NCBI RefSeq assembly: GCF_015841355.1
Contig: NZ_CP064908.1
Span: forward strand, 2,294,001 to 2,358,000
DNA: 64,000 nt
Source of the DNA: Synechococcus sp. CBW1107
Lineage (GTDB): Bacteria > Cyanobacteriota > Cyanobacteriia > PCC-6307 > Cyanobiaceae
Reading direction: 5' to 3'
Part shown: positions 32,690 through 37,332 of the stretch, in pieces
Layout: every line of letters starts with the position of its first letter
How positions within the stretch are numbered: position 1 is the first letter of the stretch
Translations under genes and position numbers: made by a program
Notes under the pieces: model-generated
Database searches by the model: none
What the model was told of the DNA's origin: nothing
Seen by the model: only the letters and a program-made list of their open reading frames with translations

Positions 32690-32815
32690 GTGTCGTTCTT
32701 CCGCTCCACCCTGTTGCCGGCCGCCATCATCGTGCTGTTCGGTCTGGCTCTGTTTGCGGTGAGTGCCAGGATCTGGCTTCCGGGTGACATGGCCGCCCCC
32801 GCTCCGATCGGTTGA
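32690..32815 (+). CDS. Possible 41-residue membrane protein
   Basis: An open frame starts at GTG 32690 and ends at TGA 32815. It encodes a hydrophilic start (MSFFRST), one hydrophobic helix (LLPAAIIVLFGLALFAV) and a short polar tail. It precedes the HEAT-repeat gene by 5 bases. The single-helix layout resembles small thylakoid or membrane peptides of cyanobacteria. It is below usual size cutoffs, and no family is recognised. Confidence 0.55.
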   Translation: MSFFRSTLLPAAIIVLFGLALFAVSARIWLPGDMAAPAPIG

Positions 32816-32820
32816 GGCCC

Positions 32821-33645
32821 ATGACCGACCAAGCCAACCCCGATCCCGGCGGTTCCCTGCCCCCCTACGCCCACGGTCCGGCCGAGCTGGCCTTCGACCC
32901 GGAGTTGCTGGCTGGCGAGCTGGCCCAGGAGCTGCTGGGCGATCCGCTCGAGGATCTCGATGCACTCGAGCCCGCCGAGGCCGACATCGCCGCGGAATGC
33001 GACCTGGGGCTGGAGTGGCTCAGGGGCGGCCATGACCAGCGCATGCAGGGGCTGCGCATCTTCTGTGAGCACCGCGACCCCCGGGCGATCCCGCTGCTGC
33101 TGCCCCTGCTGGAGGCCACCTGTCCGATCCTGCGCATGAGCGCGGTCTATGCACTGGGCCGCAACCCCGATCCGCGTGCGGTGGCCCCCCTGCTGGCCCT
33201 GCTGCAGGACGACAGCAACGGCTACGTGCGCAAGGCCGTGGCCTGGAGCCTGGGCAATTACCCCGAGTCGCCCGTGCTCAATCCTCTGATCCGGGCCCTG
33301 CAGAACGACATCGCGGCCGTGAGGTTGTGGGCGGCGGGATCCCTGGCGGATGTGGGCGGTACGGGCGCGGCCAAGGCCGATCAGGCCGCCGCCCAGTTGC
33401 TGGTGAGCCTGCGCATCGATTCCGAGCCGGTGGTGCGCAGCAACAGCGCCTGGTCGCTGGGGCGCCTCTACGACCACCTGGTGGATCCACGTCAGGGGGA
33501 ACTGGTGGAAACGCTGGTGGCGGTGATGCTCCAGGACGCTGATTCCACCGTGAGGGACGAGGCGCGGGTGGCCCTGGAGCAGCTGGAGAGTCCGGCGGTG
33601 CTGGAGCGGCTGCAGACCCTGGTGGACGAGGGCCTGATCCGCTGA
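32821..33645 (+). CDS. HEAT-repeat protein (phycobilin-lyase/NblB-like)
   Basis: This 274-residue protein has an acidic N-terminus followed by at least four HEAT-like repeats, for example DPRAIPLLLPLLEA, DPRAVAPLLALLQD, SPVLNPLIRALQ and a C-terminal DSTVRDEARVALEQL. In cyanobacteria this fold occurs in CpcE/CpcF-type bilin lyases and in NblB. Residues that would prove lyase activity are not identifiable, so it is annotated only as a HEAT-repeat protein. The ATG is at 32821. Confidence 0.85.
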   Translation: MTDQANPDPGGSLPPYAHGPAELAFDPELLAGELAQELLGDPLEDLDALEPAEADIAAECDLGLEWLRGGHDQRMQGLRIFCEHRDPRAIPLLLPLLEATCPILRMSAVYALGRNPDPRAVAPLLALLQDDSNGYVRKAVAWSLGNYPESPVLNPLIRALQNDIAAVRLWAAGSLADVGGTGAAKADQAAAQLLVSLRIDSEPVVRSNSAWSLGRLYDHLVDPRQGELVETLVAVMLQDADSTVRDEARVALEQLESPAVLERLQTLVDEGLIR

Positions 33646-33705: not shown

Positions 33706-33918
33706 ATGGCCCAGACCACCATCCGCTTCCGTATTCGCCCCGATGGGCGGGTCGAGGAGCTTGTGGAAGGCGTCCAGGGTGCAGCCTGCGAGCGGCTCAC
33801 CGAGCGGATCGAGACCCAACTCGGTTCGCTGGAACAGCGCCGCTCCACGTCCGAGGCCTTTCAGGCCGCGGCTCAGGCTGTCACCCCCTCGGTGAGCCTG
33901 CACCAGCGTTCCGCCTGA
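33706..33918 (+). CDS. DUF2997 domain protein
   Basis: This 70-residue protein begins MAQTTIRFRIRPDGRVEELVEGV, the DUF2997 signature: a beta-strand pair with RPDGR followed by a helix. It is found next to Ycf35-like genes in cyanobacteria. No function is known. The ATG at 33706 lies 60 bases after the HEAT-repeat gene, and TTAACAT (near 33676) could be a promoter element. Confidence 0.85.
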   Translation: MAQTTIRFRIRPDGRVEELVEGVQGAACERLTERIETQLGSLEQRRSTSEAFQAAAQAVTPSVSLHQRSA

Positions 33919-33946
33919 GTTTCACCCATACCCTTCGGCCGCCCCG

Positions 33947-34339
33947 ATGTCCCACTTCAGCACCGTCAAGACCGAACTGCGCGACCGCGTGGCCCTGCTC
34001 GAGGCCCTGCGGGACCTCGGCCACGACCCTGAGCTGGGGCAGCGGCCGGTCCGTGGATACCGCGGCCAGACCGTGCTCGCCGATGTGGCCCTCACCCGCA
34101 ACGACGGCTGCGACATCGGCTTCCGCTGGAATGCCGAATCCGGCACCTATGAGCTCGTCACCGACCTGGAGCTGTGGAAGCAGCCGATTCCGGTCGAACG
34201 TTTTCTCGCCCAGATCACCCAGCGCTATGCCCTGCACCAGGTTCTGGCCGCCTCCGCCCAGGAGGGCTTCCAGGTGAGCGAGCAGACCTCCAGCCTGGAT
34301 GGTTCGATCGAGCTCGTGGTCACCCGCTGGGATGGCTGA
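33947..34339 (+). CDS. ycf35: Ycf35 homologue (DUF1257)
   Basis: This 130-residue protein begins MSHFSTVKTELRD and contains GYRGQTVLADVALTR and YELVTDLELW, matching the Ycf35/DUF1257 family, which is also encoded in red-algal plastids. No biochemical activity is established. It lies 28 bases after the DUF2997 gene and overlaps the ferredoxin gene by 8 bases, so the three are very probably cotranslated. Confidence 0.92.
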   Translation: MSHFSTVKTELRDRVALLEALRDLGHDPELGQRPVRGYRGQTVLADVALTRNDGCDIGFRWNAESGTYELVTDLELWKQPIPVERFLAQITQRYALHQVLAASAQEGFQVSEQTSSLDGSIELVVTRWDG

Positions 34340-34721
34340 GGTCGATCCCTCCCTGGCCTACGCGGCACCGGCCCGCTCCAGGGTGCAACCCAGCGGCCAT
34401 GAGCCGTTGCTTGGGGGCAGCCTGCGTCAGCAGGCCGTCTGGGTCGATGAGGCCGTCTGCATCGGCTGCCGCTACTGCGCGCATGTGGCTGGCAACACCT
34501 TCCTGGTGGAACCGGTCTGGGGTCGGTCCCGGGCGATCCGCCAGGACGGCGACAGCACCGAGATCATCCAGGAGGCGATCGACACCTGTCCGGTTGATTG
34601 CATCCACTGGGTGCCGTACGAAGACGTGGCCCAGCTCGATGAGCGCCTGCGCTCCCAGGAGCTGCTGCCTCTGGGCTATCCGAGCCAATCCCGGGTTCAG
34701 CGCACCTTGCCTCGGCCTTGA
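34332..34721 (+). CDS. Bacterial-type ferredoxin, one [4Fe-4S] cluster
   Basis: This 129-residue protein carries VCIGCRYCAHVAGNTF (CxxCxxC) and the distal CPVDCIHW, a set that can hold one [4Fe-4S] cluster. A long N-terminal extension and a C-terminal tail flank the fold. The ATG at 34332 overlaps the ycf35 stop. The stop overlaps the TTG start of the aldo/keto reductase gene as TTGA, which suggests electron transfer to or from a product of this operon. Confidence 0.88.
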   Translation: MAEVDPSLAYAAPARSRVQPSGHEPLLGGSLRQQAVWVDEAVCIGCRYCAHVAGNTFLVEPVWGRSRAIRQDGDSTEIIQEAIDTCPVDCIHWVPYEDVAQLDERLRSQELLPLGYPSQSRVQRTLPRP

Positions 34722-35926
34722 CGGCGGAGCTGCCCTGCCGTCGCTTCGGGCGCACGGAGTTGGCCATGCCGGTTCTCTCTCTGGGGGGGATGCGCTACCA
34801 GCAGAGCTGGAGCGATCTGCCGGCCGGCGAGATCACCGCCGCCAGCCAGGCCAACCTGCGCGCCACCCTGGAGAAGGCCGTGGCCGCCGGGTTCCATCAC
34901 ATCGAAACCGCCCGCCATTACGGAACATCCGAGCGGCAACTGGGTGATCTGCTGCGGGAGGTGCCCGATCCCCGGCGCATCCTCCAGACCAAGGTGCCGC
35001 CCCATGAGGATCCCGCCCAGTTCGAGGCGGAGCTGGAGCTGAGCTTTGAGCGCCTGCGCATCGAGCGGCTCGATCTGCTCGGCATCCATGGCCTCAACCT
35101 GCCCGAGCATCTGGAGCAGACCCTGCGGCCCGGCGGCTGCCTCGACGTGGTCAGGCGCTGGCAGCAGCAGGGCCGCATCGGCTATGTGGGCTTCTCCACC
35201 CACGCGCCCCTGCCCCTGATCCTCGAGGCGATCGCCAGTGATGCCTTCGACTACATCAACCTGCACTGGTACTACATCCGCCAGGACAATCGCCCGGCTC
35301 TCGAGGCCGCCCGCCGCCACGACATGGGCGTGTTCGTGATCAGCCCCACCGACAAGGGCGGCCACCTGCACACCCCCTCCGAGCGGATCAGCCGGCTGTG
35401 CGCTCCGCTTCACCCCATCGAGTTCAACGACCTGTTCTGCCTGCGTGAGGCGGCGATCCACACGATCAGCGTGGGCGCCGCCGGCCCGGCTGATCTCGAC
35501 CTGCATCTGCAGGCGGTGGCGCGTCTGCCCGAGGCCGAGTGCTGGCTGGCCCCGGTGCAGGAGCGGCTGGAGCGCGCCAGGCTCGAGTCCCTCGGCGCTC
35601 GCTGGCTCGAGAGCTGGAGCGATGGTCTGCCCACCTGGGAGGCCACCCCCGGAGGGCTGAACCTGCCGGTGCTGCTCTGGCTGCACAACCTGCTGGAGGC
35701 CTGGGACCTGGAGGGTTACGCCCGCGCTCGCTACGGCCTGCTGGGCCAGGGGAGCCACTGGTTCCCCGGCGCCAATGCCGAGGCCCTGGACCGGGAGGTG
35801 AGCGAAGCCGATCTGCTGGCGGTGCTGACGGCCAGCCCCTGGGCCGAGCGGATTCCGACGCTGCTGAGGAGCCTGCGCGAGCGGCTGGGGGGCACCAGCG
35901 TCCGTCGGCTGATGGCGGATGCGTGA
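34718..35926 (+). CDS. Aldo/keto reductase family protein
   Basis: This 402-residue protein has a TIM-barrel AKR domain: RFGRTELAMPVLSLGGMRYQ, HIETARHYGTSE (catalytic Tyr), a Lys near LQTKVPPHED and LLGIHGLN. It lacks the typical NADP-binding C-terminal RS motif in a clear form and carries an extra helical C-terminal region of about 120 residues. The start is TTG 34718, overlapping the ferredoxin stop. It converges on rsmG with 6 bases between the stops. The operon position suggests the ferredoxin may be its redox partner (inference). Confidence 0.88.
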   Translation: MTAELPCRRFGRTELAMPVLSLGGMRYQQSWSDLPAGEITAASQANLRATLEKAVAAGFHHIETARHYGTSERQLGDLLREVPDPRRILQTKVPPHEDPAQFEAELELSFERLRIERLDLLGIHGLNLPEHLEQTLRPGGCLDVVRRWQQQGRIGYVGFSTHAPLPLILEAIASDAFDYINLHWYYIRQDNRPALEAARRHDMGVFVISPTDKGGHLHTPSERISRLCAPLHPIEFNDLFCLREAAIHTISVGAAGPADLDLHLQAVARLPEAECWLAPVQERLERARLESLGARWLESWSDGLPTWEATPGGLNLPVLLWLHNLLEAWDLEGYARARYGLLGQGSHWFPGANAEALDREVSEADLLAVLTASPWAERIPTLLRSLRERLGGTSVRRLMADA

Positions 35927-35932
35927 TCGGGC

Positions 35933-36670
35933 TCAGGCCAGGGGCTGCTTGGCGGGCAGACCCACGGCCCTGGGATAGATGGCGGGGCAGGGGGCGCTCG
36001 GCCTGAGCACCACCGCGTGGCGCACCCCCCGTCCTCCAGGCAGGTCGATCCGCTCCACCTGCTCCACCTCGGCGCGCAGGCAGGTGGCGGCCCGCTTCAG
36101 GCAGGCCAGATCCTCCGGGCTCCACTGGCCGCGATAGAGCAGGGCCCGGCCGCTGGTGCTGAGCAGGGGCACCAGATACTCCGCCACCACCGGGGCGGCG
36201 GCCACCGCCCGTGCCATCGCCCAGTCCTGGCGGCCGCGGCAGCTGGGGGTGTGACCGGTGGTCTCCGCCCGCTCCCAGCGGACCTGCACCCTCTCGCCCA
36301 GGCCCAGGCTGGCGGCCATGGCCTTCACCGCCTCCGCCTTGCGCCCGACGGAATCCACCAGGGTGAGCTGGGCGGCCGGCAGGGCGATCGCCAGGGCCAG
36401 GCCGGGGAAGCCGCCACCGGTGCCCACATCGAGGCAGCGCAGGGACTGGGTCGGGGCGTTGAGCTGGTCGCGCCAGGGCCAGAGGCTGTCGTACACCTGG
36501 GCGATCCAGTAGTCGTCGCCATCGACCAGGCGCGTGAGGTTGAGCCGGGCGTTCCAGTGGCGCAGCTGCTGCTGCAACGCCGTCAACTGCTGCAGCTGCT
36601 CGGGGGTGGGCTCCCAGCCCAGGCTGTCCCAGAGGCCAGCTGGAACGGGATCGGCGGGGGCTGTGATCAC
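35933..36670 (-). CDS. rsmG: 16S rRNA (guanine-N7)-methyltransferase RsmG
   Basis: RsmG methylates G527 of 16S rRNA. The 245-residue protein has NARLNLTRL, the SAM-binding CLDVGTGGGFPGLALA and TLVDSVGRKAEAV. The GTG start at 36670 is required, as no ATG fits. The gene is divergent from the DnaJ-domain gene. Confidence 0.95.
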   Translation of the reverse strand: MITAPADPVPAGLWDSLGWEPTPEQLQQLTALQQQLRHWNARLNLTRLVDGDDYWIAQVYDSLWPWRDQLNAPTQSLRCLDVGTGGGFPGLALAIALPAAQLTLVDSVGRKAEAVKAMAASLGLGERVQVRWERAETTGHTPSCRGRQDWAMARAVAAAPVVAEYLVPLLSTSGRALLYRGQWSPEDLACLKRAATCLRAEVEQVERIDLPGGRGVRHAVVLRPSAPCPAIYPRAVGLPAKQPLA

Positions 36671-36723
36671 TGCAGCACCGTTGGTCGAGCTCTCTAGGAT
36701 CAGCCAACCATGGCGCGTGGTTG

Positions 36724-37332
36724 GTGACAGGCGGCGAGCACCCGGTCACGGGCCCATCTCTCTACGCGCTGCTTGGTCTGCCGAGCACAGCCACGCCGCA
36801 GGAGCTGCGGCAGGCCTTCCGCTCCCTCAGCAAGCTGTATCACCCCGACACCACCACCCTGCCGTTGCCTGAGGCCCAGGACCAGTTCCGCCGGCTGCAG
36901 GAGGCCTACCTGGTGCTGGGCGATCCTCAGCGCCGCTCGGCGTACGACAGCCAGCTGCGTCTCGCCCTGCTGCAGCGCGTCGAGGCGCTGGGCCCGCCGG
37001 TCGCCAGTCCCGCTCCTGGCCTGGCCATGCCGGGGCCGGCCGCGGAGCGTCGCCCCCTCTCGGTGCGGCGGGCGTTCTCGGGGGGGGAATGGTTCGCCCT
37101 GGTGCTGCTGGCCCTGGCCCTGCTCTTCAGCCTGGTGCTGGGGCTGGGCCTGGCCTGGTGGCGCGGGGTGGAGCTGGTCACCCAGCCCCCGCTCAGCACT
37201 TCGGCCAGTGATCCGATCGAGCGGCACACTGAGGACATCACCGCACGCCTGCCCGCGGATGAGCTCCTTACCCCCCCTGCAGACGCCCCTGTACAACCAC
37301 CCGCTGCCGGCCCTCGAGCAGTGGCTGAGTGA
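36724..37332 (+). CDS. DnaJ-domain membrane-anchored protein
   Basis: This protein of about 202 residues has an N-terminal J domain (LYALLGLPSTATPQELRQAF, with the HPD motif in YHPDTTT) and, near residues 118-148, one hydrophobic segment (FALVLLALALLFSLVLGLGLAWW). It probably recruits Hsp70 to a membrane. Starts at TTG 36721 or GTG 36724 are both possible. Its last 74 bases overlap the DUF3143 gene in another frame. Confidence 0.87.
   Translation: MTGGEHPVTGPSLYALLGLPSTATPQELRQAFRSLSKLYHPDTTTLPLPEAQDQFRRLQEAYLVLGDPQRRSAYDSQLRLALLQRVEALGPPVASPAPGLAMPGPAAERRPLSVRRAFSGGEWFALVLLALALLFSLVLGLGLAWWRGVELVTQPPLSTSASDPIERHTEDITARLPADELLTPPADAPVQPPAAGPRAVAE

Follow-up and report, generated by a model that had tools for sequence, protein, structure and literature searches.

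The DUF2997-ycf35-fed7 cluster of Synechococcus sp. CBW1107 and a possible tie of its Ycf35/DUF2997 pair to Ycf46-type AAA+ ATPases

Cluster g and its counterpart in Synechococcus sp. CBW1107

A small cyanobacterial gene group, termed cluster g and printed as "DUF2997; DUF1257 (ycf 35); fed7", is present in most of the cyanobacteria tabulated, including Cyanobium gracile PCC 6307 (PMC4284462). The fed7 gene is part of a tricistronic operon, and in Synechocystis two-hybrid and other assays place the ferredoxin Fed7 after ferredoxin-thioredoxin reductase and before glutaredoxin 2, and show a contact with DnaJ (PMC4284462). Fed7 mutants, partners and regulation have already been published (PMC4284462; PMC8875361). 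The locus treated here spans positions 33706 to 35926 of a 64,000-nucleotide stretch of the Synechococcus sp. CBW1107 genome (contig NZ_CP064908.1, positions 2,294,001 to 2,358,000), hereafter the window, and is cluster g with an aldo/keto reductase (AKR) gene placed beside it by lineage-specific synteny.

A second described arrangement is the slr0373-slr0374-slr0376 stress operon of Synechocystis, in which slr0374 encodes Ycf46 and a mutant is affected in carbonic anhydrase activity (PMC7496141; PMC7283877). Going by names and position, we infer slr0376 to be a DUF1257 gene and slr0374 to encode an AAA+ protein of the kind searched for in the present work. In contrast to cluster g, this operon has no DUF2997 and no ferredoxin gene, and its putative DUF1257 gene is a paralogue separate from the cluster-g ycf35. 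In the plastid of the red alga Nothogenia, ycf35 and ycf46 are both apparent pseudogenes; both are thought to be involved in CO2 uptake and use, and the function of the two proteins is still called uncertain (PMC5057469). The genes pbsA, ycf34, ycf35 and ycf46 have been found significantly unequal between marine and freshwater species (PMC5940233).

In the window, the first gene of the cluster encodes a DUF2997 protein of 70 amino acids (33706..33918, + strand; Pfam PF11211, 62.9 bits, E 2.5e-17). After a gap of 28 bp it is followed on the same strand by the gene for Ycf35, a DUF1257 protein of 130 amino acids (33947..34339, + strand; PF06868, 125 bits, E 1.6e-36), which overlaps by 8 bp the gene for a Fed7-type ferredoxin with one [4Fe-4S] cluster (34332..34721, + strand, 129 amino acids; Fer4_13, 52.2 bits, E 1e-13). 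The ferredoxin gene in turn overlaps by 4 bp the AKR gene, which has a TTG start and encodes 402 amino acids (34718..35926, + strand; PF00248 Aldo_ket_red, 64.5 bits, residues 20-219). All four reading frames are intact. An earlier note, made from the DNA alone, had described these four genes with the same gap and overlaps, which the frames and coordinates confirm, and its naming of a ferredoxin and of two families with no assigned function agrees with the Pfam matches.

Gene content, order and the single strand are those of the printed cluster g of Cyanobium gracile PCC 6307 and Synechocystis PCC 6803 (PMC4284462). The likeness extends to the ferredoxin itself. Fed7 of Synechocystis (Sll0662) and the window protein have a single [4Fe-4S] cluster, a CxxCxxC motif with a later CxxxC, and the same cluster partners; the window cysteines at positions 43, 46, 49, 86 and 90 are spaced identically to the published C53, C56, C59, C96 and C100. 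Contacts with ferredoxin-thioredoxin reductase, glutaredoxin 2 and the DnaJ protein Sll1384 have been published for the Synechocystis Fed7 only. The window differs from the printed cluster in the AKR gene that follows with its 4-bp overlap and in a HEAT-repeat gene that precedes; neither is a printed member. Because the trio has been published as cluster g, it is not the undescribed system proposed in the earlier note: the trio is known, and the AKR arrangement is a local variant.

Conservation of the cluster was assessed in 146 genomes of the phylum, 64 of them from the class of the window genome, with the best DUF1257 match taken for each genome. A DUF1257 gene is present in 64 of the 64 class genomes. 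In 62 of these, ycf35 is preceded on its own strand by DUF2997 at a distance of no more than 600 bp, and for the remaining two genomes the distance is 1.7 and 1.9 kb; the proximity of the two genes exceeds chance, and the conservation of the cluster that had been expected is borne out. A ferredoxin gene follows ycf35 in all nine loci examined (the window, L062-L068 and L070). A link to stress or light, also expected earlier, is supported in print: expression of ssl1263, fed7 and ycf35 is SigD-dependent (PMC8875361).

AAA+ ATPase genes, natural fusions and structure models

The strongest partner signal for Ycf35 and DUF2997 is a Ycf46-type AAA+ ATPase, not the reductase. When the neighbourhoods of DUF1257 and DUF2997 genes are compared across bacteria, as the earlier note had suggested, the two families recur beside genes for such ATPases in many phyla. 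Within the phylum sample, counts of AAA+ (150 matches), DUF1257 and DUF2997 genes are among the matches listed, and absences from them are not firm. Every one of the 57 listed genes of a short DUF1257 paralogue has a Ycf46-type AAA+ match on its own strand at a distance of 145-528 bp, a layout which the slr0374-slr0376 order resembles. Outside cluster g, 11 of 29 other DUF1257 genes and 26 of 45 DUF2997 genes have an AAA+ match no further than 3 kb away; for the DUF2997 genes, 24 of the 26 matches are on the same strand.

The AAA+ protein was also used as query against a genome collection, which gave at least 589 stretches, at least 550 of them encoding a relative. From this set the 80 best loci, with flanks of up to 4 kb, were taken further. 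DUF1257 is found in 40 of these 80, DUF2997 in 24, either one in 47 and both in 17, against none of 80 with reversed proteins and none of 20 unrelated loci. Cyanobacteria with DUF1257 alone make up 22 of the 47 positive loci. The other 25 include, by their record titles, Bacteroidota, Spirochaetota, Omnitrophota, Myxococcota, Planctomycetota, Clostridia, Acidobacteria and an actinomycete. Nine phyla are represented, counting the cyanobacteria, and Nitrospirota is added by a plasmid with the order AAA-DUF1257-DUF2997. A Pseudanabaena plasmid carries GrpE-Hsp70-DUF1257-two genes-DUF2997-AAA.

In the window genome (G000), all AAA+ matches lie away from cluster g, and an intact Ycf46-type ATPase is encoded at G000:C1:661284-662732. 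Its relatives at 57-70% identity occur in the five other genomes of the family, which we take to be the Cyanobiaceae; the limit applied (E <= 1e-160, passed by 35 of 146 genomes) is arbitrary and omits weaker relatives. Because the AAA+ gene of this genome lies elsewhere, we do not count the window locus as a member of an AAA+/DUF1257/DUF2997 module, and propose no more than that it works in the same way. For the same reason an AAA+ partner, being encoded elsewhere in this lineage, cannot be seen from the window sequence.

Several related arrangements were observed. The window genome has a second cassette (L061, G000:C1:396000-407000), with genes for a WD40-repeat protein, an Hsp70-like protein, DUF1257, DUF2997 and AAA+. 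Its AAA+ gene appears to be in two pieces (G000:C1:402003-402452 and 406524-407510) with apparent transposase genes, read by eye, between them. At L069 2615-3016 a ribbon-helix-helix gene (Pfam Antitox_RHH) precedes an AAA+-short DUF1257 pair, and at L071 6444-6788 such a pair is preceded by a gene whose start resembles that of the L069 gene. On the Treponema succinifaciens plasmid pTRESU01 (L103 4001-4408), DUF1257 lies inside a contractile-tail cluster with sheath, baseplate J and baseplate V genes, in a stretch with no annotated AAA+ gene. At L076 3602-5275 (genome G097), a frame of 557 amino acids has DUF1257 at its end, residues 466-552, and no earlier Pfam match; its N-terminal part is possibly another fusion partner of Ycf35-type domains.

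DUF1257 and DUF2997 are joined in one chain in two Clostridia (L216 and L253), each with one domain under the Pfam cut-off. The AlphaFold model of Ycf35, made with 50 aligned sequences, has a mean predicted local distance difference test score (pLDDT) of 89.7 and the order E-H-E-E-E-E-H-E-E. A comparison of the Ycf35 sequence with the PDB gave a best E of 1.1, and Foldseek returned no matches to the model at E <= 0.001. The closest structural match is a KA1 domain (Z 6.2, root-mean-square deviation 3.6, 79 residues), with Z in a range common for unrelated models. A model of the L216 fusion was made from alignment A6, A5 and A7 having been discarded, their rows split by MAFFT. In this model, residues ~8-93 and ~85-160 each superpose on KA1-type domains, and the best match, the Chk1 KA1 domain, covers residues 87-159 across the junction (Z 7.4, deviation 2.1, 72 residues), again at a Z common for unrelated models. 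No function has been drawn from the KA1-like matches, and the absence of other folds from those lists is uninformative.

The second unit of the L216 model draws on both domains, taking the hairpin and helix from DUF2997 and, from DUF1257, the last helix plus two strands. The model, which is of moderate confidence, points to DUF2997 as the part that makes a half-domain of DUF1257 complete; this is put forward as a hypothesis because Z values of such size are common. It follows from the hypothesis that a DUF1257 protein without the last strands should need no DUF2997. Among the 40 AAA+ loci with DUF1257, DUF2997 is missing from 18 of the 19 with a short protein and present in 16 of the 21 with a full-length one; the dividing line was chosen by the author, and four cyanobacterial genes of the short kind fall in the full class. 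The loci with DUF1257 only are the 22 cyanobacterial ones, all of one gene pair, and L253, the fusion whose DUF2997 half falls under the limit.

The cyanophage gene pair and the proposed adaptor

Ycf35 relatives are also encoded by the Prochlorococcus phages P-SSM2, P-SSM5 and P-SSM7. By Pfam matches, DUF2997 stands directly before ycf35, and overlaps it, in P-SSM2 and P-SSM7. A plain tblastn search for DUF2997 in phages gave no match; since Pfam found the domain there, the miss was an issue of sensitivity. The P-SSM2 pair has Nol as its neighbour on one side and, on the other, two DUF6561 genes that precede the DNA polymerase gene, with purM and a ferredoxin gene further upstream; the DUF6561 genes are in tandem (L101 3372-3951), with ycf35 on one side and the DNA polymerase gene on the other. 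In P-SSM7 the pair is found among hli, psbA and a ferredoxin gene.

A Ycf35 relative is encoded by 434 IMG/VR stretches, and the best 80 of the 434 loci, with flanks of up to 4 kb, were used for neighbourhood counts. In all 77 loci that could be tested, the DUF2997 gene runs into the start of ycf35, three loci with fewer than 200 bases before ycf35 being excluded; 68 overlaps were scored by an automatic window and nine counted from positions (overlaps of 65-80 bp). The flanks contain purM in 19 loci and the DNA polymerase gene gp43 in 14, compared with one each for psbA and hli, and blastp found no Fed7 or AKR homologue in them. PHROGs has both Ycf35 and DUF2997 phage proteins, without function, and the presence of DUF2997 in some viruses has already been noted in one preprint.

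In a tree of 64 rows, 21 phage proteins (from two isolates and 19 of the 80 loci) form one clade with support of 100/99. A 100/100 branch separates the phage proteins, together with the six Cyanobiaceae Ycf35 proteins, from every other row. The tree has a midpoint root and some long branches, and its bootstrap is not fully settled.

The reading favoured here, held with confidence and doubt in equal measure, is that Ycf35 and DUF2997 jointly serve a Ycf46-type AAA+ ATPase as its two-part adaptor or regulatory subunit, with Fed7 exerting redox control in cyanobacteria. The two proteins would fold as one two-lobed unit, to which Ycf35 contributes its last helix and two strands as a half-domain that the hairpin and helix of DUF2997 complete. 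This unit would form a complex with, and serve, the ATPase; in the window genome it may act in trans, on the candidate at G000:C1:661284-662732. The co-transcribed Fed7, which receives electrons from ferredoxin-thioredoxin reductase as published, may couple the adaptor or its putative clients to the photosynthetic redox state. Such coupling would be consistent with what has been published on the operon, which responds to SigD, high light, low CO2 and low iron, and with the effect of the Ycf46 mutation on CO2 utilisation. For phages, the use of carrying the adaptor would be to steer the host machine in infection. The gene content and its conservation, the natural fusions, the AAA+ neighbourhoods in several phyla and the phage-borne pair are observations, from which the complex, its clients, the action in trans and the redox coupling are deduced. 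Printed findings that speak for the reading are the slr0373-slr0374-slr0376 operon, the two Nothogenia pseudogenes, the Fed7 redox chain with its partners, and the SigD dependence of ssl1263, fed7 and ycf35.

A fuller version is proposed more tentatively, and is rather to be doubted than believed. It holds that the pair are halves of a split adaptor of Ycf46-type AAA+ machines in at least nine phyla; that in cyanobacteria, and through Ycf35 and Ycf46 in red algal plastids, they would take part in redox-controlled remodelling with Fed7 as input; and that T4-like cyanophages took the pair from a Cyanobiaceae-type host and use it to steer the host machine.

Several observations weigh against an adaptor of this kind. 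Cluster g itself has no adjacent AAA+ gene, and the link is drawn from paralogues and from other phyla. Among the matches listed, no AAA+ gene lies within 3 kb of 18 of the 29 other DUF1257 genes or of 19 of the 45 DUF2997 genes outside cluster g. Of the best 80 AAA+ loci, 33 have neither DUF1257 nor DUF2997, and the Hsp70 gene seen in some cassettes is not general (one locus in 80). The L216 fusion model has a mean pLDDT of 71.7, with block means of 64-74 at residues 131-160 and below 50 beyond, and only two alignment rows cover its DUF1257 half. Z values of 6-7 are common among unrelated structures. Finally, because the 22 cyanobacterial loci share one gene pair, the correlation of short and full DUF1257 with DUF2997 amounts to about a single event.

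An alternative is that the cluster is a redox module in its own right. Fed7 would then have Ycf35 and DUF2997 as its immediate partners in redox reactions or assembly, acting in iron-sulfur or thiol chemistry or in photosystem protection, and the AAA+ link would belong only to paralogues with another job. Cyanobacterial cluster g does keep Fed7 and no AAA+ gene, both in print and in the nine loci examined; ssl1263, fed7 and ycf35 are co-regulated; and a ferredoxin gene is found with hli and psbA around the P-SSM7 pair. However, cysteine is absent from the invariant and nearly invariant positions of the Ycf35 alignment, the flanks (up to 4 kb) of the best 80 viral loci yielded no Fed7-like gene, and relatives in non-photosynthetic phyla adjoin AAA+ genes. 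We regard this explanation as unlikely, though it deserves to be taken seriously.

It is distinctly unlikely that Ycf35 and DUF2997 act as a photosynthesis-protection factor, for example in maintenance of photosystem II or the phycobilisome, without an AAA+ partner in cyanobacteria and phages. The idea draws on hli and psbA near the P-SSM7 pair, on SigD dependence in high light, on the phycobilin-lyase-like HEAT neighbour in Cyanobiaceae, and on a report that lists ycf35 among predictors of light ecotype in Prochlorococcus. Yet DUF1257 and DUF2997 occur in many non-photosynthetic bacteria, psbA and hli are rare in the best 80 viral loci beside purM and DNA polymerase, and the P-SSM2 pair sits between Nol and the DUF6561 and DNA polymerase genes.

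The aldo/keto reductase, outer neighbours and wider meaning

The AKR had been placed in the module by the earlier note, a claim which its distribution does not support. An orthologue at 47-70% identity is found in 61 of the 64 class genomes (one with an internal stop) and none in the other three. It lies within 3 kb of ycf35 in seven of the 61, namely all six Cyanobiaceae genomes and G036, of another family. In the remaining 54 it is on the same contig at a distance of at least 29 kb (27 genomes) or on a different contig of the assembly (27 genomes). The 4-bp overlap of the ferredoxin and AKR genes is unique to the window genome among the six Cyanobiaceae, the other five having gaps of 6-16 bp, and in G036 the fed7 and AKR genes are separated by one that, judged by eye, resembles a methyltransferase gene. 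In ten loci with the AKR away from cluster g, no conserved AKR neighbour was found other than gidB, an alternative neighbour present in three of them (two convergent, one on the same strand). On this synteny the AKR as a core subunit was rejected. It is probably a neighbour kept by synteny, a conclusion of modest certainty, and most likely has a separate task.

The catalytic tetrad of aldo/keto reductases is D/E-Y-K-H. The window protein has this tetrad, with the motifs HIETARHYG, LQTKV and LLGIHG, and a tail of ~120 residues (~residues 285-402; 35570..35923, + strand). The earlier note had described an extra C-terminal helical region of about this length; the length holds, and a novel C-terminal domain was rejected, as the tail aligns unbroken and end to end with that of paralogues, including one from the window genome, in which it is a double [4Fe-4S] ferredoxin domain. 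Ferredoxin-tailed reductases, which we take to be COG1453-like, thus share with the window AKR the same barrel and C-terminal ferredoxin-like region, but carry eight cluster ligands of which the window protein has none; its cysteines are only at 7, 141, 228, 241 and 275. No mention of COG1453 was found among the literature matches listed for ferredoxin-tailed reductases. All eight ligand columns are cysteine in five of five paralogues and in four of four more distant homologues. Among 30 of the 61 orthologues that were aligned, seven of the eight columns are never cysteine and the eighth is cysteine in 21; L090, a match without the tail, was excluded from these counts. The AKR is away from ycf35 in 23 of the 30, and nearly all of the ligand loss is therefore independent of the fed7 neighbourhood.

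That the AKR lost its own clusters and in Cyanobiaceae takes electrons from the [4Fe-4S] ferredoxin encoded upstream is very unlikely: the cysteine-stripped tail, the position of fed7 directly upstream with short gaps or overlap in six of six Cyanobiaceae genomes (with one intervening gene in G036) and the loss there of the last ligand cysteine agree with such a functional pair, but the seven columns lack cysteine in all 30 orthologues wherever the gene lies, gidB adjoins the AKR gene in three of ten loci without cluster g nearby, and the synteny in Cyanobiaceae spans the whole region.

Upstream of the cluster, the HEAT-repeat protein and the tiny membrane protein of the earlier note are both present. 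The former, with HEAT repeats of the phycobilin-lyase type (about 32821..33645, + strand; Pfam HEAT_2, E 1.3e-31), scores far under the cut-offs of the CpcE, NblB and CpcF models, and its gene precedes the cluster in the six Cyanobiaceae genomes and in G036. The membrane peptide is an open reading frame of 41 amino acids with a GTG start (32690..32815, + strand) and no Pfam match; comparison by eye shows a similar peptide of 50 amino acids with the same C-terminal motif 5' of the HEAT gene in G036 (locus L062). Downstream, gidB/rsmG is convergent with the AKR gene (35933..36670, - strand; Pfam GidB, E 4.9e-32). Past it, at 36721-37332, is a gene for a DnaJ-domain protein with a putative membrane segment, found likewise in all six Cyanobiaceae genomes examined; a protein of DnaJ type, Sll1384, is among the published contacts of Fed7. 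The window genome is a single contig of 3.2 Mb, and its family also has genomes of 1.7-1.9 Mb.

The slr0374 operon (PMC7496141; PMC7283877) and an alga in which both ycf35 and ycf46 have been lost (PMC5057469) are already in print. Searches of a limited library did not bring up the AAA+ association as a general module, the half-domain complementation or the phage pair; nor were ycf46, ycf35 and AAA ATPase found together there, or any mention of cyanophage with ycf35 or of the phage locus tags.

Ycf35 and Ycf46 are proteins that plastids have retained, and the comparison offers a specific and testable role for Ycf35. If true, the adaptor reading would explain why DUF2997 accompanies the Ycf35 of cluster g. 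Carriage by marine cyanophages, with 434 IMG/VR stretches and the DUF2997 overlap wherever it could be checked, marks the pair as worth carrying in infection.

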